The notes below the pieces were generated by a model. That model ran no database searches. It was given only the letters and a program-made list of their open reading frames with translations, and was not told where the DNA came from. Shown here piece by piece: positions 3,046-64,000 of a stretch of 64,000 bases of DNA. Each line of letters starts with the position of its first letter. The first letter of the stretch is position 1. Source of the DNA: Faecalibacterium sp. I3-3-89. Lineage in GTDB: Bacteria; Bacillota; Clostridia; Oscillospirales; Ruminococcaceae. The translations under genes were made by a program, and so were the position numbers. The DNA lies in assembly GCF_023347275.1 (NCBI RefSeq), contig NZ_CP094468.1, forward strand, positions 1-64,000, read 5' to 3'.

Positions 3046-4166
3046 TGCGGCTGCTCTCTCTCGAGGTCGAAAATTACCGGAACATCGCCTCGGCCAGCCT
3101 GACGCCGGGCCGGGAGCTGACAGTCATCTGCGGCAACAACGGTCAGGGCAAAACGAACCTCTTGGAAGCGATCTGGCTGCTCACCGGAGGCAAGAGCTTC
3201 CGGGGCGGCAAGGACGCCGAACTGGTGCGCCGGGGCGAACCCTTCGCTCTGCTCAAAGCGTCCACCCTCCGCGCACAGCAGGAGGAGCAGGAAAAAGAAG
3301 AGCCGAACCGCGTTCGCCTGACCGTGGGCACACCGGACTCCCCCCGCCCGGGCCGGACGGCCTCGGTGAACGGGGGCGCCGTCAAGCGGGCCGCCAGCCT
3401 TGCAGGCAGTTTTCCGGCGGTGGTGTTCGACCCCGGACACCTGAGCCTCGTGAAGGGCGCACCCGAGGGGCGGCGGAAATTTCTGGATGCAGCCCTCTGC
3501 CAGCTCTACCCCGGCTATCTGACCATCTACCGCCGCTATATCCGAGCTTTGCAGCAAAAAAATGCGCTGCTTCGCCGCTCTGTAAACGGTGCTGCGCGTC
3601 CCTATGCCGAAAAAAGAGCTTTGCTGGAGGTGCTGAACGTGGAGCTGGCCCAGCAGGGCGAGGCCATCCAGCAGCGCCGCAGGGCGTATCTTGAGACGCT
3701 CGCGCCGCTGGCCTGCTCGAACTATGAAGAGCTGTCTCACGGGGCCGAGACGCTGCGCCTGCGGTATGCGGCCCAGTTTGAGCCGGGAGGGCTGGCCCAG
3801 CTCCTGCGGCAGAAAATGCCTGAGGAGCTGCGGGCCGGGCAGAGCCTCTGCGGCCCCCACCGGGAAGATCTGGAGCTTCTGCTGGACGGCCAGCCTGCAA
3901 AAGTGTATGCAAGCCAAGGACAGCAGCGGAGCGTCGTGCTGAGCCTGAAGATGGCGGAAGCCGCAGCGGCTGCCTCCATCACGGGCGAACACCCGGTGCT
4001 TCTGCTGGACGATGTGCTCAGCGAGCTGGACGACGGCCGCAAGCAGTATCTGCTGACCCGGATGCGGGAGAAGCAGACCTTCGTGACCAGCTGTGACGAC
4101 ACCGCCTTCCTCCGAACAGACGGCGAGGTCTACCGGATGAACGGCGGCGTACTGACGAAAGTGTGA
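3045..4166 (+). CDS. recF: DNA replication and repair protein RecF
   Basis: RecF is an SMC-like ABC ATPase that loads RecA at single-strand gaps. The 373-residue protein begins [14 protein letters not shown], has Walker A GNNGQGKTNLLEA near residue 30, the signature region QGQQRSVVLSLKMAE and Walker B VLLLDDVLSELDD near the C-terminus. The start at 3045 shares a base with the preceding stop, which excludes the longer open frame beginning at 2982. The length fits the family. Confidence 0.96.
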   Translation: MRLLSLEVENYRNIASASLTPGRELTVICGNNGQGKTNLLEAIWLLTGGKSFRGGKDAELVRRGEPFALLKASTLRAQQEEQEKEEPNRVRLTVGTPDSPRPGRTASVNGGAVKRAASLAGSFPAVVFDPGHLSLVKGAPEGRRKFLDAALCQLYPGYLTIYRRYIRALQQKNALLRRSVNGAARPYAEKRALLEVLNVELAQQGEAIQQRRRAYLETLAPLACSNYEELSHGAETLRLRYAAQFEPGGLAQLLRQKMPEELRAGQSLCGPHREDLELLLDGQPAKVYASQGQQRSVVLSLKMAEAAAAASITGEHPVLLLDDVLSELDDGRKQYLLTRMREKQTFVTSCDDTAFLRTDGEVYRMNGGVLTKV

Positions 4167-4171
4167 GCAGA

Positions 4172-4426
4172 ATGTATGTGCATCTGGGCCGCGATTACGT
4201 CCTGAACGACCGGGACATCATCGGCATCTTCAACTTGGAGACGACCACCATCTCTCCCCGGGGGCGGGAGTTTCTGAACTACGCCCAGAAAAACGGGGCT
4301 GTGGTCAGCCTGTCCGATGAGCTGCCCCAGAGCTATGTACTGGCAGACGCCCCGGTGGATACGGTGTATCTTTCCGAGCTGTCCCCCGCTGCCCTCAAAC
4401 GGCGCACGGAGATGAAGCTGGAATAG
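4172..4426 (+). CDS. remB: RemB-like DUF370 regulatory protein
   Basis: 84-residue protein beginning MYVHLGRDYVLNDRDIIGIFNLET, the N-terminal pattern of the DUF370/RemA-RemB family. In B. subtilis the remB (yaaB) gene also lies between recF and gyrB; RemA-type proteins regulate matrix and osmoprotection genes by binding DNA. ATG 4172 matches family starts; a GTG at 4163 overlapping the recF stop would add three residues. Function here is inferred from family and synteny. Confidence 0.85.
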   Translation: MYVHLGRDYVLNDRDIIGIFNLETTTISPRGREFLNYAQKNGAVVSLSDELPQSYVLADAPVDTVYLSELSPAALKRRTEMKLE

Positions 4427-6757
<2,331 letters not shown>

Positions 6758-6769
6758 TGGGAGGAAACA

Positions 6770-9349
6770 ATGGAAGAAGATTACGTGATGATACCGGGCA
6801 GCGGTACCAAGATGATCATCCGGGACGTCAAGAAAGAGATCGAGACGGCGTTTCTGGATTACTCCATGTCGGTCATCGTGGCCCGCGCCCTGCCGGATGT
6901 GCGTGACGGTCTGAAGCCCGTCCACCGCCGCATCCTCTACACCATGCACGAGCGCGGCAACGACCCCAGCCATCCCTACCGCAAGTCGGCGGACACCGTC
7001 GGTGCGGTGCTGGGTTCTTACCATCCCCACGGCGACGCCTCCGTCTACGACGCGATGGTCCGTCTGGCACAGGATTTCTCCCTGCGCTACCCGCTGGTGG
7101 ACGGCCAGGGCAACTTCGGCTCTGTGGACGGTGACCCCCCGGCAGCTTACCGTTACACCGAAGCCCGCATGAGCCGGATGGCTGTCGAGATGCTGACCGA
7201 CATCGACAAGGACACCATCAACTGGGACCCCAACTTCGACGAGACGAAGAAGGAGCCGAGCGTCCTGCCCTGCCGCTTCCCGAACCTGCTGGTCAACGGC
7301 AGTCAGGGCATCGCCGTCGGCATGGCCACCAATATCCCGCCCCACAACCTCAGCGAGGTCATCGACGGCTGCGTGGCCTATATCGACGACCCCGACATCG
7401 ACCTGCCCGGCCTGATGGAGCACATCAAAGGCCCGGACTTCCCCACTGCCGGCATCATCATGGGGCGCAGCGGCATCCGCGCCGCCTACGCCACCGGCCG
7501 CGGCAAGATCACCCTGCGGGGCCGCGCTACCATCGAAGAGACCAAGAATGGCCGCACCCAGATCATCATCACGGAGATCCCGTATATGGTCAACAAGGCC
7601 CGGCTCATCGAGAATATGGCCGATCTGGTCAAGGACAAGCGCATCGAGGGTATCACCGGACTGAACGATGAGACCAACCGCAAGGGAATGCGCATCGTGG
7701 TGGACATCCGCAAGGACGCCAACGCGCAGGTCATCCTGAACCAGCTGTATCAGTACACCCAGCTGCAGGACACCGTGGGCGTCATCATGCTGGCCATCGA
7801 CCACAAGGTGCCCAAGGTCATGACCCTGAAACAGATGATCCAGAAGTACGTCGAGTTTCAGGATGAAGTCGTCCGCCGCCGCACCCAGTACGACCTGAAG
7901 AAGGCCAAGGAGCGCGCCCACATCCTCGAGGGCTTGAAAAAGGCCACTGACATCGTGGACGAGCTGATCGCCACCATCCGCGCCTGCAAGGGCGGTATGT
8001 CGGAAGCCAAGGCCGCCATCATGGAGCAGTTCGGCTTCGACGACCCGCAGGCCGACGCCATCGTGAAATTGCAGCTGGGCCGTCTGGCCGGCCTCGAGAT
8101 TTTGAAGATCGAGGAAGAGCTGTCCGGCCTGCAGGCCAAGATCGAGGACTGGGAAGACATCCTCGCCCACGATGCCCGGGTGCTCGAGATCGTCAAGAAC
8201 GAGCTGCTGGACATGAAGAAGCGCTTCGGCGACGAGCGCCGCACCGAGATCCAGTCCGTCACCGGCGAGGTGGACATCGAGGACCTCATCGCCGAGGAAC
8301 AGTGTGTCTATACCCTCACCGAGGCCGGTTATATCAAGCGTCAGCTCAAGGCCACCTATCAGGCCCAGAAGCGCGGCGGCCGCGGCATCTCCGGCATGAC
8401 CCGGAAGGAAGAGGACATCGTGCAGGAGATGTTCGTCGGCTCCACCCACGACTACGTCCTGTTCGTCACCGACAGGGGCCGCCTTTTCCGGGTCAAGGGC
8501 TACACCATCTCCGAGGGCAGCCGCACCAGCAAGGGCAGCAACATCGTCAACCTGCTGCAGCTGGCCGAGGGCGAGAAGGTCACGAATATGCTCTGCTACC
8601 CCAAGGATGAGGACAACAAGGGCGGCTTCGTCACCATGGTGACAAAGCAGGGCCTCATCAAGCGCACCCCGCTGGAGCAGTACGCCAACATCCGCAAGAC
8701 GGGCCTCATCGGCATCGCCCTCAACGAGGGTGACGCGCTGGCATGGACCCGCCTGACCACCGGCAATGATATGCTCATCGTGGCTACCCGCAACGGTCAA
8801 GCCATCCGCTTCAACGAGGCCGACGCCCGCCCGATGGGCCGCAGCGGCCACGGCGTCCGGGCCATCAAGCTGGCCGAGGGCGACGAGGTCGTCGGCGTCT
8901 GCATCTGCCGCGAGGGCGGCACGGTGCTCACCGTCACCGAGAACGGCAAGGGCCGCCGCTCCGACATCGACACCTACCGCATCACCGCACGCGGCGGCAA
9001 GGGCATCCGGAACTACGACGCCTCCAAGGACAAGGTGGCAGCGGTCAAGATCGTGGATGACATCGACGATGTGCTGCTGAGCAGTCAGGAGGGCATCATC
9101 ATCCGCCTGCACGCCAACGAGATCCCCGTCCAGAGCCGCTATGGCTCCGGCGTCCGGGTCATGCGTCTGGGCGAGAACGACAAGGTCATGGTCCTTGCCC
9201 GCACGGACCACGACGATGAGGCACAGACTGAGAGCATCGAGTCTGATGCCGAGGACGAACCCACCGCCGAGCAGCTGGCGGAGATGGAAGCAGCCGATGA
9301 GGCATCGGCCGCCGAAGCTCCCGAGGCCGACGTCGGCGACGAGGAATAA
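6770..9349 (+). CDS. gyrA: DNA gyrase subunit A
   Basis: DNA-cleaving subunit of gyrase. The 859-residue protein contains the active-site tyrosine in [10 protein letters not shown] (about residue 129), the quinolone region [14 protein letters not shown] (residues 85-98), a C-terminal beta-pinwheel and an acidic, Glu/Ala-rich tail. The C-terminal blades include RGGRGISGM, close to the GyrA box. The start is set by GGGAGGAAAC just upstream. Residue 90, equivalent to Ser83 of E. coli, is alanine (see findings). Confidence 0.97.
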
Positions 9350-52181: not shown

Positions 52182-53744
52182 TCATTTGACCTCCTGCTGC
52201 GGTACGGCGTGGCTGCGCTCCTCCTTGCGGAAGAAGGCTTCCACGTTCTGTTGTGCGGTGCGGAGTTCACGCAGTTCGATCTGCGCTTTCTTGTAGCGGG
52301 TGTAGAACCCGTTTTTCTCCGAGGAAAGGGTCTGGTATTCGGCATCCAGCTTTTTGAGGTCCGGCAGCGTCCTGAGCCCATTGGCCTTGAAATAGGCGCA
52401 AGCGGCCTCGTACACAGCAAACTCTGCACGGTGCTGCTCCTTGAACTTGGCGGGATTCCGCACAGTCTGGAGCTTCTGTGCAAGGGGCTTGTACTGCCGA
52501 TAGACCACAAGATGCCCGCGCAGCTCCTTGAGGGAGACCATGCGGGCATCCAGGTCTTTGACCACCGCCAGTGCATCGTCGTGCTGGGTTTGCAGTTCGG
52601 CAATGCGCTGGTGCAAGGCATCTTCGCTGAGCAGCTTCTTCTCCTGCAGGAGACACAGGGTCTGCGACCAGCGTTTGAGGTTGAACTTTTTCGCCCAACG
52701 CTCATAGCCGATGCCCTTGCCCGCAGCAACGTTCGCCTGAATGTCAACCAGTTTCCTGATCTTATCCGGCTTCTGTTCGCTGGCGGGCTGGATGATGGCG
52801 GCAAGCTGGATGTTCTGGGAGAGGGCGGTCAGCACCTGCTCTTTTTCCAGCTTCTTGCTCAGTTTCTTGGCGGTGATGAACTTTGTCCGGCCGGGTGGGC
52901 AGTAGCTCAACCGGCCTCGGCTCTCCTTCACGGCGATGCCGTGTTCCTGCATGAGCAATGCAGAAAATTCCTCGAAGGTGGTGGTCTTGTTCAGCACAGC
53001 GTAGATCTGCTTTCGCAGCTTGTCCAGTTCGGTCTGATAGACGGTCTGGGTGGGCTGCTGCCCTTCGGCGGCAAGTTTGGCGTTGGCATGGTCGAGGCGG
53101 CGTTGTCCGCGCCGCTGTGCCCAATACTCGCGCTCCGAAACATGGTCGCCTTGGGCTTCCAGCAGATTGATCTGGTTCAGGTCGGCTTGTTCGCACATTT
53201 CCATGACAGCGACACGGAGGTGCCGGAGCATGGCAGAGGTGCAGCGGTGCTTCTTGCCCACTTCCCAGTCGCACGGCTTGTCCATGAAGGGCTGCCGTTC
53301 CACGGTGCGGACACGCAAGCTGCCGATGACGATGTGGACGTGGATGTTCCCGGCACTGTTGTGACCGTCCGGGTGGGTGCAGACGATGGCGGGATGACCG
53401 GGGAAGTTGTCCTTGCAGAACTGCAAGCCAAGGGCTTGCGCCCGCTCCATGGTCAGACCGTTCTCTACTGCGTCCTTCGGGTCGAAGCTCACAATGTAGT
53501 GATGGGTCTTCACGTCCTCCCGCCCGCCGTTCTTGCCGTACTTGCGGTTGGCAATCAGGCAGGCCATAGCGAACGAAGATTCGCCGCACTCAAGGGTGTC
53601 GAGCAGGTACGAATCCCGCAGCTTGGGTCTGCCCTTCTCGTCCAGAATGGGCAGACCGGTGTATTCGTTGTGCTGAAAGGTGAGATAGCTTTCGGTGGCG
53701 GCATAGTTAGAGTTCTTCGAGCTTAAATGCTTGATGGTTGCCAT
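52182..53744 (-). CDS. MobA/VirD2-type relaxase
   Basis: 520-residue DNA relaxase that nicks oriT and pilots the strand during conjugative mobilisation. The N-terminal nuclease domain has the candidate tyrosines in NSNYAATESYL (residues 14 and 20), HHYIVSFDP (81 onward) and the metal-binding H124-PDG-H128...NIHVHIVIG (H135, H137). The C-terminal half is long and helical, with coiled-coil stretches. ATG 53744 lies within the end of mobC, indicating coupling. No type IV secretion genes are in the window, so the element would depend on a helper. Confidence 0.9.
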   Translation of the reverse strand: MATIKHLSSKNSNYAATESYLTFQHNEYTGLPILDEKGRPKLRDSYLLDTLECGESSFAMACLIANRKYGKNGGREDVKTHHYIVSFDPKDAVENGLTMERAQALGLQFCKDNFPGHPAIVCTHPDGHNSAGNIHVHIVIGSLRVRTVERQPFMDKPCDWEVGKKHRCTSAMLRHLRVAVMEMCEQADLNQINLLEAQGDHVSEREYWAQRRGQRRLDHANAKLAAEGQQPTQTVYQTELDKLRKQIYAVLNKTTTFEEFSALLMQEHGIAVKESRGRLSYCPPGRTKFITAKKLSKKLEKEQVLTALSQNIQLAAIIQPASEQKPDKIRKLVDIQANVAAGKGIGYERWAKKFNLKRWSQTLCLLQEKKLLSEDALHQRIAELQTQHDDALAVVKDLDARMVSLKELRGHLVVYRQYKPLAQKLQTVRNPAKFKEQHRAEFAVYEAACAYFKANGLRTLPDLKKLDAEYQTLSSEKNGFYTRYKKAQIELRELRTAQQNVEAFFRKEERSHAVPQQEVK

Positions 53745-54153
53745 ACAGTTCACCAACCGTTTCTTCGGCTTTCAGCCGAAAGTTCGTGAGTGCGGACAGT
53801 TCCTCCAGAATCTGCGCCCGGAGCTGCTCGGTGTCTTTGCCGCCGGAGTTGAAGTGCCGTGCAAGCTGGTTGAGGTTGCTTCCCACCTTGCTGCACTGGG
53901 CAGACAAGGCGGCAAGCGCCGCCAGTGCGTCCTCGCCGCCCTGCGCCACCACGACGGTGTGCTTGACGTTCACGCCGTACAGGACACGGCGGACGAGTTC
54001 GGACTGGGTGAGGTGGAGTTCTTTGCAGGCGTATGCGATCCGCAGCTTTTCTTCTGCGGTCACTCGGACTTTGATGATGTGTGTCTTTCGTTTTCGCGGC
54101 ATGTCATTGCGGTTCTTCTTTGCGTGTACGTTCGGACTTTTCATTTCAGCCAT
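53707..54153 (-). CDS. mobC: MobC-like relaxosome protein
   Basis: 148 residues. A basic N-terminus (MAEMKSPNVHAKKNRNDMPRKRKTHIIKVRVTAEEKLRIAYACKELHLTQSELVRRVLYG) forms a ribbon-helix-helix-like DNA-binding part; the C-terminus has SKVGSNLNQLARHFNSGG, the MobC signature. It assists the relaxase at oriT. ATG 54153 follows GGAGG. The gene overlaps the relaxase by 38 bases. Confidence 0.88.
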   Translation of the reverse strand: MAEMKSPNVHAKKNRNDMPRKRKTHIIKVRVTAEEKLRIAYACKELHLTQSELVRRVLYGVNVKHTVVVAQGGEDALAALAALSAQCSKVGSNLNQLARHFNSGGKDTEQLRAQILEELSALTNFRLKAEETVGELYGNHQAFKLEEL

Positions 54154-54986: not shown

Positions 54987-55199
54987 TCAAGATGGTTTTG
55001 TAAAATTTATTGTGATAAAGCGGTGATAGTAGGACTTATGAAAAGTGAAGTGTAAAGTACCGTAGCCGTCGATCAGCATCTTATGGGCATACGCACCGAA
55101 GTTGTGCGTTCCCAACTGCCGCATCTTGTGCTGGATGAGATTCAACCCCTGCTCGTTCAGGCAGATTTCCTTGCGGATGGGTCGCGTGCGGTCTGGCAT
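54987..55199 (-). pseudogene. Truncated second relaxosome gene
   Basis: ATG 55199 has AAAGGAG upstream. The first 45 residues, MPDRTRPIRKEICLNEQGLN followed by LIQHKMRQLGTHNFGAYAHKMLIDGYG, match the N-terminal pattern of Gram-positive mobilisation proteins of the ribbon-helix-helix type. After IDGYG the sequence (TLHFTFHKSYYHRFITINFTKPS) is unrelated and AT-rich. The 3' part has been replaced, leaving the start of the gene. Confidence 0.6.
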
Positions 55200-55568
55200 A
55201 TCAAAGAACTCCTTTCACTTTACAACGGACATTTTTAAGTCAAAACGCAGGGATCAAAATGAGAAATTTTCAAAAAATATGCGCCCCTGCTTTTGCGAAA
55301 GCGGGAGCGCGTTGTATCTGCGGATATGAGATTTGAGAGAATAGCAAGCACATCCGGTGTCCGTACACACCGGGAAAATGAGCGTTTCAGCCTTGCAGCC
55401 GATACGCCCATTTTGATTTTTGGGAAAGCCCCAAACCCTTGTTTTTTAGGTTGAAGATACTTCCTGAGCTTTTCCGGAAAGTCCTTGCTTTTATTCGCTT
55501 TGACGATTATAATTATACTGTGATTTTATAAGCAGACGCAGAACGGAACTGCAACAGGAGTGCTGCCC
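55200..55568. other. Region between mobilisation and defence genes
   Basis: 369 bases without a supported gene. The composition changes from GC-rich to AT-rich near 55500, and TATAAT-like sequence (AATTATACTGTG) around 55508-55520 may be the promoter of the next gene. Confidence 0.4.
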
Positions 55569-55769
55569 ATGAAGTATTTATCAATCGCGCAAACCGCTGA
55601 ACGCTGGGGTATCTCCACCCGCCGTATTCAGATTTTGTGCGGCGAGGGGCGTGTCCCCGGTGCGATCCGCATTGGCTCGGTCTGGGGGATTCCAGAGGAC
55701 GCAGAGAAACCGGCGGACGCAAGAATCAAGAACGGCAAGTATATCAAGAAGAAAATTCATAATTCATAA
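55569..55769 (+). CDS. Small helix-turn-helix DNA-binding protein
   Basis: 66 residues: MKYLSIAQTAERWGISTRRIQILCGEGRVPGAIRIGSVWGIPEDAEKPADARIKNGKY is a MerR/excisionase-like winged helix plus basic tail. ATG 55569 is 8 bases after AGGAG. Proteins of this type often precede restriction-modification genes and probably regulate them; this is inference from position, 82 bases before mod. Confidence 0.78.
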   Translation: MKYLSIAQTAERWGISTRRIQILCGEGRVPGAIRIGSVWGIPEDAEKPADARIKNGKYIKKKIHNS

Positions 55770-55851
55770 TGCGTAATGCATAATTGTAATCTGTCGAAAA
55801 TTCTGCATTGTGAATTACGAAATATGCTTTATTTTCAGGAGGAAATCAGCC

Positions 55852-57615
55852 ATGCCAACACTTGAATGGATTGGAAAAAGCAAGGTGATCAATCACCATC
55901 AGAAAGTGCCGTTTCGGGTGTTGGAGCGCAAGTACAGCTTTGATGAAAACGGACAGCACAGCGAAGATAACGGCAGCGAAAACATGATCATCCGGGGCGA
56001 TAATCTGGAAGCCCTGAAAGCGCTGCTGCCCCGGTATGAGGGGCGCGTCAAGTGCATTTACATCGACCCGCCCTACAACACCGGCAACGAGGGCTGGGTC
56101 TATAACGATAACGTCAACGACCCCAAGATCAAGAAATGGCTGGGCGAGGTCGTCGGCAAAGAGGGCGAGGACTTGACCCGCCACGACAAGTGGCTGTGCA
56201 TGATGTATCCGCGCTTGAAGCTGCTGCAAAAGCTGCTGGCGGATGATGGATGCTTAATTATAAGCATCAGCTACCATGAACTACATAATCTTGTAAATCT
56301 CTTGCGAGAGATTTTTGGGACAAAGCAGATTGTGACTGTCACAGTACAAACTTCTGGTGGGAAACCATCAGGCGGTTTTAACTATGTGCAAGAGTATCTG
56401 GTTTTTGTTGTGCCTGCGGACTTTCACGCAAACGCACTTGATTTTTGTGGCGGGAATAACAGAACGCCATTCGAGGGGCTTACACTGAGTACGTTCGACA
56501 AGACACAACGTCCAAATCAGACATATCCAATTTTTATAGACGAAAATGGTGTATTTGCTGGTGTAGGAAAATCATTACAAGAGCAAATTGATGACGGCTC
56601 ATACACCGGAGAGAAAGCTGATTTTCCATATGACTACTCTATCGCTCCACAAGGGAAAGTTGCCGTTTGGCCCGTAACAGCAAAAGGCAAGCAGTGTGTC
56701 TGGCGGCAGATTTCAGGACGATTACAAGCGGATTGGGAAAAAGGCTATATAAAAATCTCAAAAAACAAAAGCGGGAGCAATCAGAACCAATACAGTGTCC
56801 AGTATTTGCCAAGCGGAGTTATCAAGAAAATCAAAGACGGCGAGTTGGAAGTTTTAGGGCATGAAGATGGTGTTCCGACGTTGTTATTTGGAGAAAATCA
56901 GACCGTAGGCGGACAGGTTCCTACGATATGGGCTGAAAAAGCATTTTTCACTGTTAACGGAACGCAAACGCTTAAAAACATTTTTCCTGAATCGCCCAAA
57001 ACGTTCGACTATCCGAAATCGGTTGCACTGATTGAAAGCGTGGTTCAAGCAATCACAAAAGATGCCGATATTATCCTTGATTCCTTCGCCGGTTCCGGCA
57101 CCACCGCCCATGCGGTGCTGAACATGAACAAAGCGGACGGCGGACACCGCAAGTTTATTCTTGTCGAGATGATGGACTACGCCGACAGCATCACCGCCGA
57201 GCGCGTGAAGCGCGTTATCAAGGGCTACGGTGAGGGTAAAAACGCCGTGGAGGGCACAGGCGGCAATTTCAGCTTCTATGATCTTGGCGAACCGCTGCTT
57301 ATGGGCGATTGCCTGAACGAAGCGGTTGCCCCGGAGAAAATCCGCGAATACATCTGGTTCATGGAAACAAAGCAGCCCTACGCCCCGCCCAGCGGCGGAA
57401 ATCCCTATTACCTCGGCAAGCACAACAGCACAGGCTATTACTTCTACTACGAGCCGCAGCGCGTGACGGTGCTGGACTATGCGTTCCTCTCCACCATTAC
57501 GGAAAAAGCCGACGGAACGGTGATCTACGCCGACCGCTGCTCCATCAGTGAGGACAAGCTGGCAAAAATGGGCGTTACATTCAAGAAAATACCGAGAGAT
57601 ATTAGCAGACTGTAA
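55852..57615 (+). CDS. Type III restriction-modification adenine methyltransferase (Mod)
   Basis: DNA N6-adenine methyltransferase of the beta class: the catalytic motif DPPYNTGNEGWVYND (residues 72-86) precedes the SAM motif FAGSGTT (412-418). Length 587 fits type III Mod, which also sets the recognition sequence for the partner Res. ATG 55852 follows AGGAGG. The middle (about 56250-57050) is visibly AT-richer than the flanks, as if the target-recognition domain had been exchanged. res begins 14 bases after the stop. Confidence 0.92.
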   Translation: MPTLEWIGKSKVINHHQKVPFRVLERKYSFDENGQHSEDNGSENMIIRGDNLEALKALLPRYEGRVKCIYIDPPYNTGNEGWVYNDNVNDPKIKKWLGEVVGKEGEDLTRHDKWLCMMYPRLKLLQKLLADDGCLIISISYHELHNLVNLLREIFGTKQIVTVTVQTSGGKPSGGFNYVQEYLVFVVPADFHANALDFCGGNNRTPFEGLTLSTFDKTQRPNQTYPIFIDENGVFAGVGKSLQEQIDDGSYTGEKADFPYDYSIAPQGKVAVWPVTAKGKQCVWRQISGRLQADWEKGYIKISKNKSGSNQNQYSVQYLPSGVIKKIKDGELEVLGHEDGVPTLLFGENQTVGGQVPTIWAEKAFFTVNGTQTLKNIFPESPKTFDYPKSVALIESVVQAITKDADIILDSFAGSGTTAHAVLNMNKADGGHRKFILVEMMDYADSITAERVKRVIKGYGEGKNAVEGTGGNFSFYDLGEPLLMGDCLNEAVAPEKIREYIWFMETKQPYAPPSGGNPYYLGKHNSTGYYFYYEPQRVTVLDYAFLSTITEKADGTVIYADRCSISEDKLAKMGVTFKKIPRDISRL

Positions 57616-57629
57616 GGGGTGTTCGCTGT

Positions 57630-60257
57630 ATGGAACTGAAATCTTATCAGAAAAAAGTGATAGCGGACCTGACCCGCTATCTGGAACTGTTGAACGAAAC
57701 GCAGAACTATATGACAGCGTTTGAGCAGTTCTGGCGGGAAAAGAGCGCACCGGCTTTAGGGCGATACCAAAACGTGATACCCGGTGTTCCAAATCTCTGC
57801 TTCAAGGTACCGACAGGCGGCGGCAAAACCTTCATTGCCTGCAACGCCGTTCGCCCTATCTTTGACGCGCTCCCCGCTACCAAGACAAAGGCGGTCGTGT
57901 GGCTTGTTCCATCGGACGCGATTCTGACACAGACGGCGAAAGCCCTGAAAGACACCTCCCATCCCTACCGCCAAAAAATCGACGTGGATTTCGGCGGGCG
58001 TGTGGAGGTCTACACCAAGCAGGAGCTTTTGAACGGTCAGAACTTCAACCCCACGGCCGTAACGGAGCAGTTGTCGGTTATGGTGCTGTCCTATGATTCC
58101 TTCCGCGGTCGCGGTAAGGAGGGCTTGAAAGCCTATCAGGAAAACAGCAATCTTGCCGCGTTTGCAAAGGTGCTGGGCAAGCCCGACAGCCCCATTGAAA
58201 AAGCGGACGAAACCGCTCTGTTCCAGATCATCAACCAGCTTAACCCGCTTGTCATCGTGGACGAGAGCCACCATGCCCGGTCGGAATTGAGCCTTGAAAT
58301 GCTGGAAAACTTCAATCCCTGCTTTGTGCTGGATTTGACCGCCACACCGAAAAAGGAGAGCAATATCATCTCCTATGTGGACGCGGTGCAGCTGAAAAAC
58401 GAACACATGGTCAAGCTGCCGGTGATCGTCTATAACCGGGACAGCCAAGCCGAGGTACTGACTGATGCAATCGACCTGCGGAACAAGCTGGAAGAAATCG
58501 CAAACGCGGAGTACGCCAAGACGGGTAAATATATCCGTCCTATCGCGCTGTTTCAGGCACAGCCGAAGGGCAAGGAGGACGCGACCACCTTTGAAAAACT
58601 GCGGGACAAGCTGGTGGACGCCGGGATTCCTGCCGATCAAATTGCCATTCGTACCGCCGATGTGAACGAGCTGAAAAATGTGGAGTTGATGTCCCCAAAC
58701 TGCCCGATCCGATATATTATCACGGTCAATGCGCTGAAAGAGGGCTGGGACTGCCCCTTTGCCTATATTCTTGCGTCCCTTGCCAATAAGACAAGTCAGG
58801 TTGACGTGGAGCAGATTTTGGGACGGATTCTCCGTCTGCCCCATACGAGCCAGCATACGCAAAGCGCACTCAATATGTCCTATGTGCTGACTTCCTCCAA
58901 CGACTTCAACAACACCGTGGCGCATATCGTCAAGGGCTTGAACAGCGCAGGTTTCAGCGATAAGGACTATCGGATCGGGGAGTCCGCAAAACCGCAGATT
59001 CCCGAACAGCCAGCAGAACAAATTACGCTGCCTGACCCGCAAGGAGTTTCCGAACTGGAAACCGCAGAGGACGATTTTTCGGGGCTGGATGGGAAATTGA
59101 TCGGGGCAGAGTTGGAGCGGCGCAGAGAACAGGCGCAAACGCCTGAAACTGCCCCGAAGGCCGACACCATGCTGGACGCTGCCGCAGAGGTCGAAAAGGC
59201 ATATACAGATGCAATTCAGCAGACCGGCAATGACCCGGTGATGGACAATCTTCCGTGGGAGGTGCGGGATAAAGTGAAATCATTTGGGGTAAACCCGCAG
59301 TTCCGGGAGGATATTGAAACGCTGCAAATCCCGCAGTTTTTCCTGAAAATCGAGCAATCTCTGTTTACGGACGGCTCTTTTGAACTGCTGGACAAGGAAA
59401 TGCTGGCAGAGGGCTTTACCCTCAAGGGCAAAGCATACGACATTGATTTTGCCGCCGCAGACGATGAAATCCGCGAAATCGACGTGCGGGAGCAGGACGG
59501 CGGTTTGCCGAAGGTGTTCAAGATGGAGAGCGCCGAGCAGCGGTATTTCAAGGAGTGGTTCAACAATCTGCCGCAGGAAAGCCGGGTGCGCCAATGCAAG
59601 GACATGATGTTCAAGCAGCTTAACAAACTGAACATGGTGGACGCTGCCGAGCTGAAAGCCTACATAGACCGCATTGTGGACGATATGGACAAGGCGCAGC
59701 TCGCCGCCATGGAGAAAGCGCCGTTGGGCTATGCGGCGAAGATCCGTGACAAGATTGAAACGCTGCTGGAAGCCCACTATCGGGAAATTTTTGAAAAGTG
59801 GCTGGAAACGGAGCGCATTGTCTGCAAGCCCTCGTTCCGCCTGCCCCTCGCAATCCATCCCACCACCCATACTGACATATACGCCCGTTCGCTGTACACG
59901 GCGGAGGACGGCGACATGAACAAACTGGAACAAAAGCTGGTCGTAGAGCTGACCGCCCTGCCAAATGTCCGTTGGTGGCATCGGAATATTGCCAGACAGG
60001 GCTTTTCAATCAACGGCTTTATCAAGCATTACCCGGATATTCTGATTATGACCCAAAGCGGCAAGCTCATCTGCGCGGAAACCAAGGGCGACCACCTGAA
60101 AAACGATGACAGCCGGGAGAAAATCGCACTCGGTCAGGCGTGGCGTACAGCAGCAGGCAAGGATTTCCGCTATTACATGGTATTTGAGAATGAGGAAAAC
60201 CTCTTGCCGGGTGCAATGAGCATGAGCCAGTTTATCGACACGGTAAAGGCGCTGTAA
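57630..60257 (+). CDS. Type III restriction enzyme helicase-nuclease (Res)
   Basis: 875 residues. Helicase motifs: Walker A KVPTGGGKT (residues 59-67), DESHH (211-215), LTATP, ITVNALKEGWDCP and QILGRILRLP. The C-terminus carries a PD-(D/E)xK nuclease, HYPDILIMTQSGKLICAETKGDHL, with D803, E817 and K819. With Mod it senses unmethylated sites, moves along DNA and cuts. All key residues are present, so it looks functional. Confidence 0.92.
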   Translation: MELKSYQKKVIADLTRYLELLNETQNYMTAFEQFWREKSAPALGRYQNVIPGVPNLCFKVPTGGGKTFIACNAVRPIFDALPATKTKAVVWLVPSDAILTQTAKALKDTSHPYRQKIDVDFGGRVEVYTKQELLNGQNFNPTAVTEQLSVMVLSYDSFRGRGKEGLKAYQENSNLAAFAKVLGKPDSPIEKADETALFQIINQLNPLVIVDESHHARSELSLEMLENFNPCFVLDLTATPKKESNIISYVDAVQLKNEHMVKLPVIVYNRDSQAEVLTDAIDLRNKLEEIANAEYAKTGKYIRPIALFQAQPKGKEDATTFEKLRDKLVDAGIPADQIAIRTADVNELKNVELMSPNCPIRYIITVNALKEGWDCPFAYILASLANKTSQVDVEQILGRILRLPHTSQHTQSALNMSYVLTSSNDFNNTVAHIVKGLNSAGFSDKDYRIGESAKPQIPEQPAEQITLPDPQGVSELETAEDDFSGLDGKLIGAELERRREQAQTPETAPKADTMLDAAAEVEKAYTDAIQQTGNDPVMDNLPWEVRDKVKSFGVNPQFREDIETLQIPQFFLKIEQSLFTDGSFELLDKEMLAEGFTLKGKAYDIDFAAADDEIREIDVREQDGGLPKVFKMESAEQRYFKEWFNNLPQESRVRQCKDMMFKQLNKLNMVDAAELKAYIDRIVDDMDKAQLAAMEKAPLGYAAKIRDKIETLLEAHYREIFEKWLETERIVCKPSFRLPLAIHPTTHTDIYARSLYTAEDGDMNKLEQKLVVELTALPNVRWWHRNIARQGFSINGFIKHYPDILIMTQSGKLICAETKGDHLKNDDSREKIALGQAWRTAAGKDFRYYMVFENEENLLPGAMSMSQFIDTVKAL

Positions 60258-60271
60258 GGGAGGTGCGTGCT

Positions 60272-60967
60272 TTGAAACTGCCGTATGAGAACGAACTGTA
60301 TGAGCTGCGAAAGTGGATAGACTTTACAAATGCAAACTTGCATATGCAGTTTCTCCACACGCCTCAGGAAATTCAGCGCGTTTACCAATGGATCAATGCA
60401 ATTACGAGAGGAATCCAAGCAGACTATCCTTTTTATGCGACTACGCTCCCCTGTGTTGCAAATATACTTTTTCAGCAAAACGAAGTGGGTGCTATTTTCC
60501 TGAATCCTGCGGCATTTGGCGAGTTGGTGGTAATTGTTCGCCATATCAAAGCAGAACCCGTTGTTGTCCAGTTCTGGTCAGAGATACACCCGCGGATTGT
60601 GAATGTTTCCCGTGAGTTATTTGTAGATGGTCATTGTTCAGCTGCGGCAGAAAAGGCAATTAAAGAAGTGGAATCACGTCTGCGCGAAAAGTTTTCAGAG
60701 TTAAAACCTGGCGCAGCAGTTCCCTCAAAGATCGGCGATGTGATTGGCGCACTTATGAGCGAGAACGGCGCTTTCAAATTCTGTGACACAACTACTACCA
60801 GTGGCAGGGACTACCGACGTGGAATCCAATCTCTGTTTGAAGGAATCATGGCAGCCTATCGCAATCCTGCGGCTCATGCTAATCTTCAATATGAAAAACG
60901 TGAGGCTATGGAGCAAATAATGCTGGCAAGCCAGCTGATGTATGTGTTAGACAAGCCGCAATTATAA
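60272..60967 (+). CDS. TIGR02391 (Ymh)-like protein
   Basis: 231 residues. The C-terminal half reads IHPRIVNVSRELFVDGHCSAAAEKAIKEVESRLREK, then RRGIQSLFEGIMAAYRNPAAHANLQYEKREAMEQIMLASQLMYVL, the pattern of the TIGR02391 family, often found near restriction or abortive-infection genes; its AYRNPxAH motif is HEPN-like in style. The N-terminal 100 residues are unfamiliar and helical. TTG 60272 is well placed after AAGGGAGG (GTG 60263 is too close). Starts 14 bases after res and ends 9 bases before the TIR gene. Confidence 0.72.
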   Translation: MKLPYENELYELRKWIDFTNANLHMQFLHTPQEIQRVYQWINAITRGIQADYPFYATTLPCVANILFQQNEVGAIFLNPAAFGELVVIVRHIKAEPVVVQFWSEIHPRIVNVSRELFVDGHCSAAAEKAIKEVESRLREKFSELKPGAAVPSKIGDVIGALMSENGAFKFCDTTTTSGRDYRRGIQSLFEGIMAAYRNPAAHANLQYEKREAMEQIMLASQLMYVLDKPQL

Positions 60968-60976
60968 GGAGAATCT

Positions 60977-62446
60977 ATGGATTTTAGAAAACTTCCATCT
61001 AATTCTGAAGGGTTACTGTTAAAGCTGGTCTGTTCAGAAAACCCTACGCAGGTATTGCGGAAACAATACAACGGGCTTTCTACGCAACAAGAGCAAGAAC
61101 TTGACGGTATCATAAGAGAACTAAAAGAACTCGGCTATATTGATGTTAAATGGGCTGATAATGAGCCATACTTTGTCATTCTAAATAATTCTGCAAGAAC
61201 ATATAGTGAACGATTGGCTGAGTATAACACGCATAACCCCACCAATGCAACACAAGGGAAAAAGGAGAAAAATACAATTTTCATAAGCCACCGATCAACT
61301 GATAAAGGTATTGCGGATATGCTTGTTGACTTTTTTGCAGGAACCGGAATTTCTAAGGAAGCAGTTTTCTGCTCTTCTCTGCCGGGCAACGACATAAATG
61401 AACGCATTTCTGATGAAGTCAGATCTGCGCTGAAAAGCAGCGCAGTTAACATTGCGATTCTTTCGCATGATTATTATCAGAGTGCCTATTGCCTGAATGA
61501 AGCGGGAGTGCTTTGGTATGAGGACGTTCCTGTAATTCCAGTTGCCTTGCCGGAAATTAATTCGGGCAACATGTACGGATTCCTAAATAACGAATATAAG
61601 TTAAGGCGGTTGGATTCCGATACAGATATTTCGTACATTTATGATACTGTGAGCGAAGCGGTATCGGCTCCGCACACAAAAGCCAGTCTTATCACATACG
61701 AGAATAATAAACTTAGAACAAGGTATGCAGAATATTTGAAAGTGAGAGAATTGCCCCCGGGTGGTTCTGATATTTCTATCGCAGATACTATTGCAGAAAT
61801 AACCACGGACGATGAACGAATCGTGCTATACTACATACTTCATGAAAATGTTCGAAAAGTCTCTAAATCTACTATTTCAAGTTGGTTAAACAAATGCGAA
61901 ATCCGTGGCGTAAATGTCGATAACGCGTTTGATCTGCTGTCATCTTTTGATAACGGGGCTTTGAATAACGATACTCTGGAGTTTGGCATCGACACTTTCC
62001 GCAAATACTCTGCAAACGTAGCACGGGTGCTTCCACCACTTAAAAAATGCGTGGATCAGCATATTGAATTAGCCGTCAACATATTCAAAAAAATCTGGTC
62101 AGATGACACGCTTGATATTAATATACGGCTGTTTGTTGCTTATATCGTGGAAGAGAGAATGCGCACGTTTGGTGACCGTTGGATGGCAGAAGGAGAAATC
62201 GAAAATATAAGGCAGTGGGAGAGCAAAAACACACTTGATTCCACACTTTCAAATAACTATGGAAGCTGCCTTGAATTTTTTGTTCAAAATGAGCTTGTAT
62301 ATGCAAGCAGTTGGACAAGCTATGGAAATCCGCGAGAGTATACTTTATTCCCTTCTCTACAGGAGCTCCTTTTTAATTGTCCCCATAAGATTATGGAGGA
62401 ATTACAAAAAGTCAAAGATGCCTATCATTTAGATTTTCCATTTTGA
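60977..62446 (+). CDS. TIR-domain protein, probable defence effector
   Basis: 489 residues. The N-terminus (about 1-75) looks like a winged helix (LLKLVCSENPTQVLRKQYNGLSTQQEQELDGIIRELKELGYIDV). Residues 99-230 form a TIR domain: NTIFISHRSTDKGIADMLVDFFAGTGI, then SLPGNDINERISDEVRSALKSS and SAYCLNEAGVLWY, where E175 fits the catalytic glutamate of NAD-cleaving TIRs. The C-terminal 250 residues are helical and unrecognised. AT-rich relative to mod-res. The ribosome site AAGGAGA follows the previous stop, so the pair is co-translated. Role as an NADase effector is inferred. Confidence 0.8.
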   Translation: MDFRKLPSNSEGLLLKLVCSENPTQVLRKQYNGLSTQQEQELDGIIRELKELGYIDVKWADNEPYFVILNNSARTYSERLAEYNTHNPTNATQGKKEKNTIFISHRSTDKGIADMLVDFFAGTGISKEAVFCSSLPGNDINERISDEVRSALKSSAVNIAILSHDYYQSAYCLNEAGVLWYEDVPVIPVALPEINSGNMYGFLNNEYKLRRLDSDTDISYIYDTVSEAVSAPHTKASLITYENNKLRTRYAEYLKVRELPPGGSDISIADTIAEITTDDERIVLYYILHENVRKVSKSTISSWLNKCEIRGVNVDNAFDLLSSFDNGALNNDTLEFGIDTFRKYSANVARVLPPLKKCVDQHIELAVNIFKKIWSDDTLDINIRLFVAYIVEERMRTFGDRWMAEGEIENIRQWESKNTLDSTLSNNYGSCLEFFVQNELVYASSWTSYGNPREYTLFPSLQELLFNCPHKIMEELQKVKDAYHLDFPF

Positions 62447-62453
62447 GTTTTAA

Positions 62454-62493
62454 GAAGCCCGGCATCGCGCCATTTGACGTGATGCCGGGCTTC
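62454..62493. terminator. Bidirectional terminator between TIR and ATPase genes
   Basis: GAAGCCCGGCATC and GATGCCGGGCTTC flank a 14-base loop between two converging genes. Confidence 0.85.
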
Positions 62494-62497
62494 CTGT

Positions 62498-63712
62498 TCA
62501 GTTCCATTCCTCCGCCAAGAGGAAATCGCGGATATTCCGGTGTTTGATCCCGTTTCGGCTCATGTCGAACTCATCGAGGGAAACAACGTACTTCGGGAAG
62601 TTGTCGCGGATGCTATCATACGCGCCGAACTCGCGGTTGACTGTTTCTTCCGATGCCAGAAGATAAGTGACCTGAACATACAGCTTTTCGCCGCGCTTGT
62701 CACATACAAAATCAATTTCCTTATCGCCCGTCCTGCCGACAGTCACCTCATAGCCCCGGCGCAGCAGCTCCAGATAGACGATGTTTTCCAAAATGAGGTT
62801 GATGTCCCGCATATTGCCGCCGAAGACCGCCTCGCGGATTCCGTGATCGGCAATATAATACTTCTCGTTGGAGGCAAGGATCTGTTTGCCCTGCAAGTCC
62901 TCCCGCTTCACCTGATAGAACAGGTACGCCTCGCAGCAGTATTTGATATAGTTCAGAATTGTTTCCGGGGCAACGGTGCGCTGCTCGTTTTTCAGGAACT
63001 TTGCAAGAGAGGTCGCCGAGAAGGTCGTTCCCACATTGGCGATCACATAGGCAATGATCCGTTCCAGCAGGTCAACGTCACGGATTTTATTTCGCTTCAC
63101 GATGTCCTTGAGCTGGACAGAGTTGAACAGATCGTGAAGATATTGCTTGGACGGCGCATCCGCATAGCGGAGGTTTGCGAGATAGGGCATCCCTCCGGCA
63201 AGCAGGTACTTTTGGAAACACTGCTGAATGGACGCATCAGGACTGATCGAGCGGTACAGCTCCATGAACTCTCCGAATGAGAACGGATAGATCACAAACT
63301 CCACATACCGTCCGCCCAAATAGGTTGCAAGCTCACCAGACAGCAGCTTTGCATTGGAGCCGGTGATATAGATGTCGCAATCCAGCGAAACGCGGAAAGA
63401 ATTGATGCACTTTTCCCAGTCCTTGACCTCCTGAATCTCATCAAAAAACAGATAGACCTTGCCGTCGATCTCCTTGGCGCGTTTGGTGATCTCATCATGC
63501 AGCGCCTGCGCGGTTTGCAGATGGGAGTAGCTCATATCCTCAAAGTTGATGGCGATAAACTGTGTTGGGCTGACGCCGGACTCCGTGAGTTCCTGCTGGA
63601 TCAGCTCCAACATGACCGACTTTCCGCAGCGGCGGATACCGGTCATGACCTTGACTAGCTCCGTCCCGATAAACGGACGGATGCGGCTCATATACAGTTC
63701 GCGTTTGATCAT
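62498..63712 (-). CDS. AAA ATPase with DUF4143 domain
   Basis: 404 residues: AAA_14-type ATPase with Walker A MTGIRRCGKSV near residue 23 and Walker B YLFFDEIQEV near 88, ITGSNAKLLSGELATYLGGRY sensor region, followed by a DUF4143 nuclease-like domain (NEKYYIADHGIREAVFGG, ILENIVYLELLRRGYEVTVGRTGDKEIDFVCDKRGEKLYVQVTYLL) whose E, D and Q/K pattern resembles the PD-(D/E)xK fold. Widespread in gut Bacillota and mobile elements; function unknown. ATG 63712 follows GGAGAG. Confidence 0.88.
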   Translation of the reverse strand: MIKRELYMSRIRPFIGTELVKVMTGIRRCGKSVMLELIQQELTESGVSPTQFIAINFEDMSYSHLQTAQALHDEITKRAKEIDGKVYLFFDEIQEVKDWEKCINSFRVSLDCDIYITGSNAKLLSGELATYLGGRYVEFVIYPFSFGEFMELYRSISPDASIQQCFQKYLLAGGMPYLANLRYADAPSKQYLHDLFNSVQLKDIVKRNKIRDVDLLERIIAYVIANVGTTFSATSLAKFLKNEQRTVAPETILNYIKYCCEAYLFYQVKREDLQGKQILASNEKYYIADHGIREAVFGGNMRDINLILENIVYLELLRRGYEVTVGRTGDKEIDFVCDKRGEKLYVQVTYLLASEETVNREFGAYDSIRDNFPKYVVSLDEFDMSRNGIKHRNIRDFLLAEEWN

Positions 63713-64000
63713 AAAACTTCACTCTCCTTCCGTGGCCGACCACAGTATATCACACTTACGATTGAAACTCAATGGAGAAATTGCAAAACCAAAAGTTATA
63801 ACTGATAAAATACTGAATTCGACAAAAGATTTCAGATAAGGCTCAACTATTTAAGCGAAGCCCTGCAAAGGGAGGGTTTCACCCTTTATTGGCACACAAG
63901 ATGCCGTTACAGAAAAATGAAACAACCATCGGCATATCCGTTGGACGGTTACCCTGCTCAAGAAAGAGAGGGTACAGATTGAAATCGCTGACACGGTGGT
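63713..64000. other. Right edge of the window
   Basis: No complete gene. An open stretch near 63945-64000 (reading TVTLLKKERVQIEIADTVV in one frame) might begin or end a gene cut by the window, but there is not enough to name it. The far end of the integrative element is not visible. Confidence 0.4.

Follow-up and report, generated by a model that had tools for sequence, protein, structure and literature searches.

What are a TIGR02391-family gene and a TIR gene doing at the end of a type III restriction-modification (R-M) operon? The operon lies in the stretch of DNA analyzed here, called the window: positions 1 to 64,000 of contig NZ_CP094468.1 of Faecalibacterium sp. I3-3-89, whose genome of 2.8 Mb is a single contig. 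The original prediction offered two answers, that the pair is a backup triggered when restriction is inhibited or that it is an independent two-gene system, and added that it was probably acquired separately from the R-M genes. Taken as a whole this prediction came through in part: the backup fared well, the independent pair did not, and separate acquisition did by half. I propose that the locus is a type III R-M operon whose 3' end carries two abortive-infection effectors, both of them exchangeable, a reading with a modest balance of probability in its favor. The proposal starts from what is observed: gene order, protein families, predicted catalytic residues, selection, the return of the TIR family on unrelated R-M operons, and different cargo on related operons.

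The features are as follows, G735 being a genome from another family of the same order.

55852..57615, + strand: mod, type III N6-adenine DNA methyltransferase (N6_N4_Mtase 7e-30; PADLOC MTase_III 3e-158; motifs DPPY and FAGSG)
56250..57000, + strand: variable region of mod that probably recognizes the target and is replaced in G735 (26-39% identity in 150-base bins)
57630..60257, + strand: res, type III restriction subunit, helicase and PD-ExK nuclease motif (ResIII 3e-18; PADLOC REase_III; GGGKT, DESH, PD..ETK)
60272..60967, + strand: ymh, TIGR02391/PF09509 HEPN-family protein, probable RNase effector (PF09509, Hypoth_Ymh, 7e-22; TIGR02391)
60272..60580, + strand: N-terminal helical half of Ymh, fast changing (comparison with G735)
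60581..60964, + strand: HEPN domain of Ymh
60860..60877, + strand: RNPAAH, the R-x4-6-H motif of HEPN RNases (Ymh protein alignment)
60977..62446, + strand: putative TIR effector gene, SpbK-like, with a C-terminal domain (TIR_2 5e-8; PADLOC spbK 6e-28; SpbK chain 9phb_G 6e-11)
60977..61267, + strand: N-terminal domain of the TIR protein (family alignment)
61268..61660, + strand: TIR domain (SpbK alignment; N174, E175, G177, and W180 conserved)
61499..61501, + strand: codon of E175, predicted catalytic glutamate (aligned to SpbK E192)
61778..62443, + strand: C-terminal domain (CTD) that defines the family, about residues 268-489 (aligned in 14 rows)
62498..63712, - strand: AAA_14/DUF4143 gene, convergent (AAA_14 2e-34; PADLOC PDC-S01 8e-167; 97% identical in G735)

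The open reading frames and the sequence bear out the predicted layout, coordinates included: mod, res, ymh (TIGR02391), and TIR lie on the + strand in that order, with gaps of 14, 14, and 9 bases. The pair is also AT-richer than mod-res, as had been claimed (G+C of 46% for ymh and 40% for TIR, against 49% for mod and 54% for res; window 58%). Mod and Res have what defines a type III system: adjacent genes, a DPPY-type N6 methyltransferase, SF2 helicase motifs, and PD-ExK. The mod frame is open from a GTG at 55810, and the ATG at 55852 is my choice of start. The ymh gene begins with TTG at 60272, just after GGGAGG at 60258-60263; an in-frame GTG at 60263 overlaps this likely ribosome-binding site, so I judge 60272 the better start. 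Promoter and terminator scans gave no excess over shuffled sequence (8 versus 8.4, and 13 versus 8.8 with sd 3.5), so the case for co-transcription comes wholly from gene spacing. The same locus, with identical proteins, occurs in Faecalibacterium longum CLA-AA-H243 (L023). The convergent AAA_14/DUF4143 gene was considered as a part of the system and rejected, its window version being matched only in the window/L023 locus and in G735; a gene of the same Pfam families at locus L029 does not match the window protein at 1e-8.

The Ymh protein matches TIGR02391 with 47.5 bits (cut-off 39.45) and PADLOC's Aga_HEPN at 1e-9, and it belongs to the HEPN (Ymh) family in having both a PF09509 match and an intact R-x4-H motif. 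R-N-x3-H is kept in all nine aligned Ymh proteins that reach the motif; the tenth, at L082, is truncated. The predicted fold appears to agree with HEPN, and in the structure search the N-terminal half matched many unrelated helical proteins. A PDB sequence search with Ymh gave no significant match, and nothing in the plasmid collection matched it. From its sequence, then, Ymh is a probable RNase effector. Its two halves have changed at different rates: residues 1-120 (counted from 60263) are identical to G735 at 80 of 120 positions with a dN/dS of 0.31, and residues 121-234 at 107 of 114 with a dN/dS of 0.06. Among coding parts of the operon, 60272-60650, in the N-terminal half of Ymh, is the second most variable relative to G735, after the Mod recognition region.

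The TIR protein's best match is SpbK, a TIR abortive-defence protein of Bacillus subtilis and its only solved relative at E 0.001 in a PDB sequence search (5.6e-11). Query E175 falls on residue 216 of chain 9phb, which is SpbK E192 if the chain has 24 extra residues, an offset I counted from the motif N-E-x-G-x-x-W. The available text of PMC12847820 lists E192 among the NAD-contacting residues. N174, E175, G177, and W180, which make up the motif and align with the active-site glutamate and the interface residues N, G, and W of SpbK, are kept in 15 of 15 aligned members (an alignment that leaves out L038, which has no TIR, and two duplicates, L023 and L027). The glutamate picked out by the original prediction is thus the residue that aligns with the active site, and the protein is likely an NADase. 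It differs from SpbK in that the TIR of the latter is the last domain, whereas here a conserved domain of about 220 residues follows, the N-terminus is different, and the setting is an R-M operon. By architecture it is not SpbK: it matches only 129-259 of chain 9phb, and about 270 residues follow the match.

That C-terminal half, which had been called unknown, has neither a Pfam match nor a significant PDB sequence match in its CTD (about 220 residues), and it turns out to hold a distinct conserved domain common to the relatives. To my eye the CTD halves and the N-terminal domain looked like winged helices, an impression that hhalign comparisons of these parts against each other did not bear out (not significant, probability 0.1-5.9%). 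A profile comparison of the CTD with Mod found no similarity. The N-terminal domain is 50-61% identical to the window's in L026 and L029-L032 and 16-23% in L025, L034, L036, and L037; it is absent from the aligned reading frames of L028 (a split gene), L033, L035, and L024 (truncated). A tblastn search of phage and plasmid collections with the TIR protein hit 3 records from phages and 11 from plasmids, always with less than 80% of the query covered; the L034 TIR hit 20 plasmid records, again below that coverage, the best being a Priestia plasmid at 46.7% identity over the TIR part. Scans of viral contigs gave no confirmed match.

G735 has the same four genes in the same order, plus the AAA_14 gene, in a shared block of about 8.9 kb (about 55062-63949). 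The shared order, together with purifying selection on the HEPN half and the TIR domain, argues that the four-gene arrangement is not due to chance. In 150-base bins, identity is 81-99% in res, 71-85% in the first 450 or so bases of ymh, and 95-99% in TIR. The variable region of mod is flanked by 93-94% just before and by 67% then 91-96% after it, and a gapped bin at the start of mod falls to 42%. By two-sequence NG86 estimates, dN/dS is 0.10 for the TIR domain, 0.17 for the linker plus CTD, and 0.10 for Res; residues 1-97 of the TIR protein give 1.66 from very few changes (dS 0.016). What of the separate acquisition of the pair? The shared block implies that the genes travel together now, which goes against the claim, and the unequal dS (TIR 0.07, Res 0.30, AAA_14 0.39, Ymh 0.52, Mod 0.75) points to a mosaic, which goes some way towards it. 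TIR, with the lowest value of the operon genes, was probably exchanged more recently. Upstream of the block, 52182-53756 encodes what I take by eye to be a relaxase-like protein, and 14901-16286 of L118 presumably, again by eye, an integrase-like one.

Do ymh and TIR form a unit? They adjoin each other only in the window/L023/G735 lineage and in G008 (locus L037), where the order is ymh-TIR-mod-M78-res and the gap between the two is 50 bases, versus 9 in the window and in G735. Beside the TIR gene and type III system of L037, positions 6805-7614 encode a Ymh protein with a PD-Lambda-3_B match along almost all of its length. No Ymh was found by blastp in the stretches of L024-L036. Conversely, nine of 295 genomes of the order have Ymh, and a full-length relative of the TIR protein with its CTD is present in two of the nine (the window's and G008) and not in the other seven. 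R-M genes lie within 5 kb in five of the nine (window, G008, L079, L083, and L084, the last through a weak match to HsdM). The pairing is not obligatory. The original prediction had said that rare adjacency would tell against the pair as a unit, and the co-occurrence check of the two proteins comes close to that, finding them rarely adjacent. With most family loci lacking Ymh and seven of nine Ymh genomes lacking this TIR, an independent two-gene system is not supported. What is found instead is replacement: at L079 a Ymh gene lies 9 bases after Mod, at the very position that holds a TIR gene in L034, and the two operons are related, with 71.9% identity in Mod and 72.9% in Res. That two type III operons so alike have a TIR gene in one case and a HEPN gene in the other at the same position supports reading the effectors as exchangeable.

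The company kept by the TIR protein elsewhere gives the same impression. A pattern scan of 84,980 genomes for the CTD yielded 14 loci, among them L023 from the window's own species, and a genome search added G008, G174, and G735 (G203 is the same locus as L034). Family TIR genes stand with type III genes at L026 and L027 (identical TIRs, so one lineage), L034, L037, and G735. L029 has HsdM and HsdR (type I) plus a T5orf172 gene, and no S gene was identified. L030 has an m5C methylase, and L031 an m5C methylase and an LlaJI endonuclease. L032 has N6_Mtase and Methylase_S beside TIR, which I take to be a BcgI-like system, and L035 an Eco57I/TaqI_C enzyme, IIG-like, 0.8 kb upstream of TIR. No same-strand R-M gene was found near TIR at L033, L036, or L038; the vicinity of L025 contains a reverse transcriptase and an FRG gene, and L024 has almost no upstream sequence. 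At L026, L027, L029-L032, and L034, TIR is packed about 30 bp or less from the preceding gene or overlaps it.

Similar TIR proteins stand on R-M systems of different type. The proteins of L030 and L031, whose systems differ in type from that of L032, are 76 and 75% identical to its TIR protein, and those of the window and L029, on type III and type I, are 64% identical. It is as if the TIR protein with its CTD recurs as a plug-in second line on unrelated restriction operons. Its parts seem to have separate histories, judging from unequal identities to the window at L034 (TIR 28%, CTD 41%) and L037 (TIR 57%, CTD 29%) and from the likeness of the L034 TIR to that of the Priestia plasmid. Most of the family tree lacks resolution, with 7 of its 12 inner branches open, and no conclusion here rests on it. 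Three further observations concern these loci. Positions 1497-6373 of L028 contain IetAS-like AAA and subtilase genes (PADLOC IetS) and, after them, the TIR gene in a split copy. Directly downstream of TIR, on the same strand, are genes without a Pfam match at L032 (10709-12832, 707 aa) and L035 (3469-4725, 418 aa). L005/L038 has a CTD without TIR (258 aa) next to a 114-aa reading frame, with no R-M gene found nearby; the domain may be a leftover there, or it may be used by itself.

How strong is the association with R-M? An R-M gene lies within 5 kb at eight of 16 family loci versus eight of 51 other TIR genes (Fisher p 0.009), or at seven of 15 without the duplicate locus (p 0.018); within 300 bp the counts are 6/16 and 6/51. 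For these counts R-M proteins served as phmmer queries, each locus's own left out, and the control TIR genes were hand-picked, not random: 33 best TIR_2 places, 13 from other searches, and 6 lower TIR_2 places, 52 in total and mostly one per genome (three from G048, two from G197), 51 counted after one place proved to have no gene found. Pfam adds L029, L032, and L035, which brings R-M near 11 of 16 family loci by either method (with that of L033 on the opposite strand), the Pfam step being applied to the family and not locus by locus to the controls. Among 87 operon neighbors of the controls, Pfam found ResIII 5 times, N6_N4_Mtase 3, and N6_Mtase, HSDR_N, Type_ISP_C, and Eco57I 2 each, taken from the first 25 of 126 families with loci not separated. 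As a contiguous same-strand neighbor, R-M occurs at 8 of 14 loci (window, L026, L029, L030, L031, L032, L034, L037), a count that drops the duplicate L027 and, for lack of sequence, L024. Since generic TIR genes near R-M are not rare, part of the enrichment is defence-island clustering. Nor is R-M required for the family, because neither method found an R-M gene within 5 kb at five of 16 loci (L024, with its scant sequence, L025, L028, L036, L038) and the only one at L033 is on the opposite strand.

The reverse comparison keeps to related R-M systems. In the mod-res family of the window (Res 49-94% identical), the slot 3' of res is taken by ymh plus TIR, TIR alone, FRG plus Beta_protein, a set of three genes that match no Pfam family, or a gene of 907 aa; L157 ends at a contig edge. 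Nature has provided both kinds of experiment, one effector placed with a range of R-M systems and a group of related R-M systems with differing effectors, and together they favor the backup effector attached to R-M as the likelier of the two original answers.

From this I infer the enzyme activities, the coupling to R-M, and the trigger as follows. Mod-Res would be the first line, destroying unmodified phage DNA, while the TIR protein is held inactive, possibly sensing through its N- and C-terminal domains. Were restriction to fail or be blocked, the TIR protein would cluster as SpbK does and destroy NAD+. Ymh, as a HEPN RNase, would cut RNA; with its fast-changing N-terminal half it may serve as a second effector with its own trigger, not as an antitoxin. 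Each would end phage production through death or arrest of the cell. Since the CTD is kept across unrelated R-M partners, what sets the TIR protein off is more likely something that infection or failed restriction produces in general, be it DNA or a phage protein, than contact with any single R-M subunit. Whether R-M failure itself is sensed becomes a directly testable question.

It may be that nothing is coupled at all: TIR and Ymh could be independent SpbK-like defence genes, each sensing phage proteins by itself, that gain no more than expression and joint transfer from their place in R-M operons. For SpbK, the closest relative with a solved structure, the activator is a phage portal protein, according to the available text of PMC12847820. 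The family members at L025, L028, L036, and L038, where no R-M gene was found, would then need no explanation, nor would the generic TIR genes near R-M or the different types of R-M partner. Yet R-M lies near the family more often than near the hand-picked TIR genes from outside it, the TIR gene packs tightly against the preceding gene in most of its R-M operons, and several R-M types serve as hosts. I regard mere co-residence as possible but doubtful.

At the other extreme, Mod-Res might bind TIR, Ymh, or both and keep them inactive until a phage anti-restriction protein frees them, a precedent being PrrC, which is encoded in a type I locus (PMC12707154 and PMC3710099, in the parts available). 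The operon order kept in G735 would suit such a guard, and the two fast-changing regions, the recognition region of Mod and the N-terminus of Ymh, are what a Mod-Ymh contact might give, but an arms race or recombination explains the change in Ymh equally well. A guard fits poorly with a CTD that is conserved across R-M partners of different type, and the CTD and Mod profiles are without similarity; unrelated partners argue against a direct lock of the PrrC kind, which I consider unlikely. Least probable, to my mind, is an addiction module stabilizing a mobile block, with Ymh and TIR as toxin and regulator or antitoxin. The genes do sit next to each other, Ymh then TIR, 9 or 50 bases apart, but both proteins keep their predicted catalytic residues and each occurs without the other.

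How much of it is new? Suicide effectors linked to R-M are already known in kind. Their coupling to restriction was proposed from gene neighborhoods in 2012-2013, with PrrC as the worked example (PMC3506569 and PMC3710099, as far as the available text goes), and PrrC-EcoprrI is a suicide effector within an R-M locus acting as a second line (available portions of PMC12707154 and PMC3710099). The anticodon nuclease PrrC, an ABC ATPase-HEPN protein, belongs to a type I locus, whereas here a TIR protein and a Ymh HEPN protein stand on type III; unlike PrrC, neither has an ATPase domain, relatives occur on other R-M types, and the tie to R-M is one of co-location. The original prediction knew of no described system with a TIGR02391/TIR pair on type III, and targeted searches of the open-licence literature gave no paper on a TIGR02391/TIR or a TIR/type III NADase system, and none on SPARHA. 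Ymh (PF09509) HEPN genes linked to R-M are in print (excerpts of PMC3710099 and PMC3506569), as solos and as fusions to pMORC, AbiJ-NTD1, and AbiTii in R-M operons, those excerpts showing no type III TIR partner. So is paraMORC-TIR, linked to R-M-type operons (PMC2292703, in part); paraMORC4-TIR is fused to or beside a GHKL ATPase, which none of the four genes here encodes. In BREX and related systems, suicide effectors, HEPN proteins among them, are encoded within the core operon or next to it, and TIR has 0 occurrences in the available text of the source (PMC12839542); these are BREX-type systems, not classical R-M. As for PD-Lambda-3, the Ymh of G008 matches its B protein over nearly full length at 2e-65 and that of the window over the HEPN half only, at 8e-5; a PD-Lambda-3 system has A and B, and no match to A was found in the five window genes or the other locus proteins scanned. 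What could be seen of PMC9519451 has nothing on PD-Lambda-3 under that spelling. What the present loci add is a TIR family that occurs with type I, several type II, type III, and IetAS genes.

A bolder version of the proposal is tempting, though I would put it forward only tentatively. The CTD would be a general sensor of restriction failure (surviving foreign DNA, for example, or anti-restriction activity), linking R-M of any type to NAD+ depletion by TIR in a two-stage immunity, and type III operons would have evolved dedicated slots for interchangeable suicide effectors, located either between mod and res or 3' of res. A census of type III operons, covering 39 of the higher-scoring Mod places in the order (G203 being taken as the identical locus L034), speaks to the slots. 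Mod and Res lie within 3.5 kb at 37 of the 39, and 22 of these 37 pairs have a reading frame of at least 80 aa in between (for example L085, L102, L135, L144-L152, L159, L161, L163, L165-L167, L171; the 84-aa frame of L034 is doubtful). As judged by four TIR queries, a TIR gene lies within the operon in at least five of 39 (L118, L034, L037, L085, L135), those inside L085 and L135 being of other families, and at L102 one lies about 2 kb upstream. The accessory reading frames of type III operons may therefore deserve a look as effectors. Other cargo in the slot includes a YhcG nuclease (L163), 23S_rRNA_IVP proteins (L146, L148, L149), and an M78 peptidase (L037); a regular expression finds HEPN-like motifs at L165 and, after Mod, at L154. 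Between mod and res of L167, positions 4069-4890 of the - strand encode a RES-domain protein. RES toxins degrade NAD+, so two unrelated families that act on NAD+ may share the slot. Many slot proteins have no Pfam match and some look membrane-bound by eye. Among the cargo proteins compared, only the three 23S_rRNA_IVP proteins matched each other.
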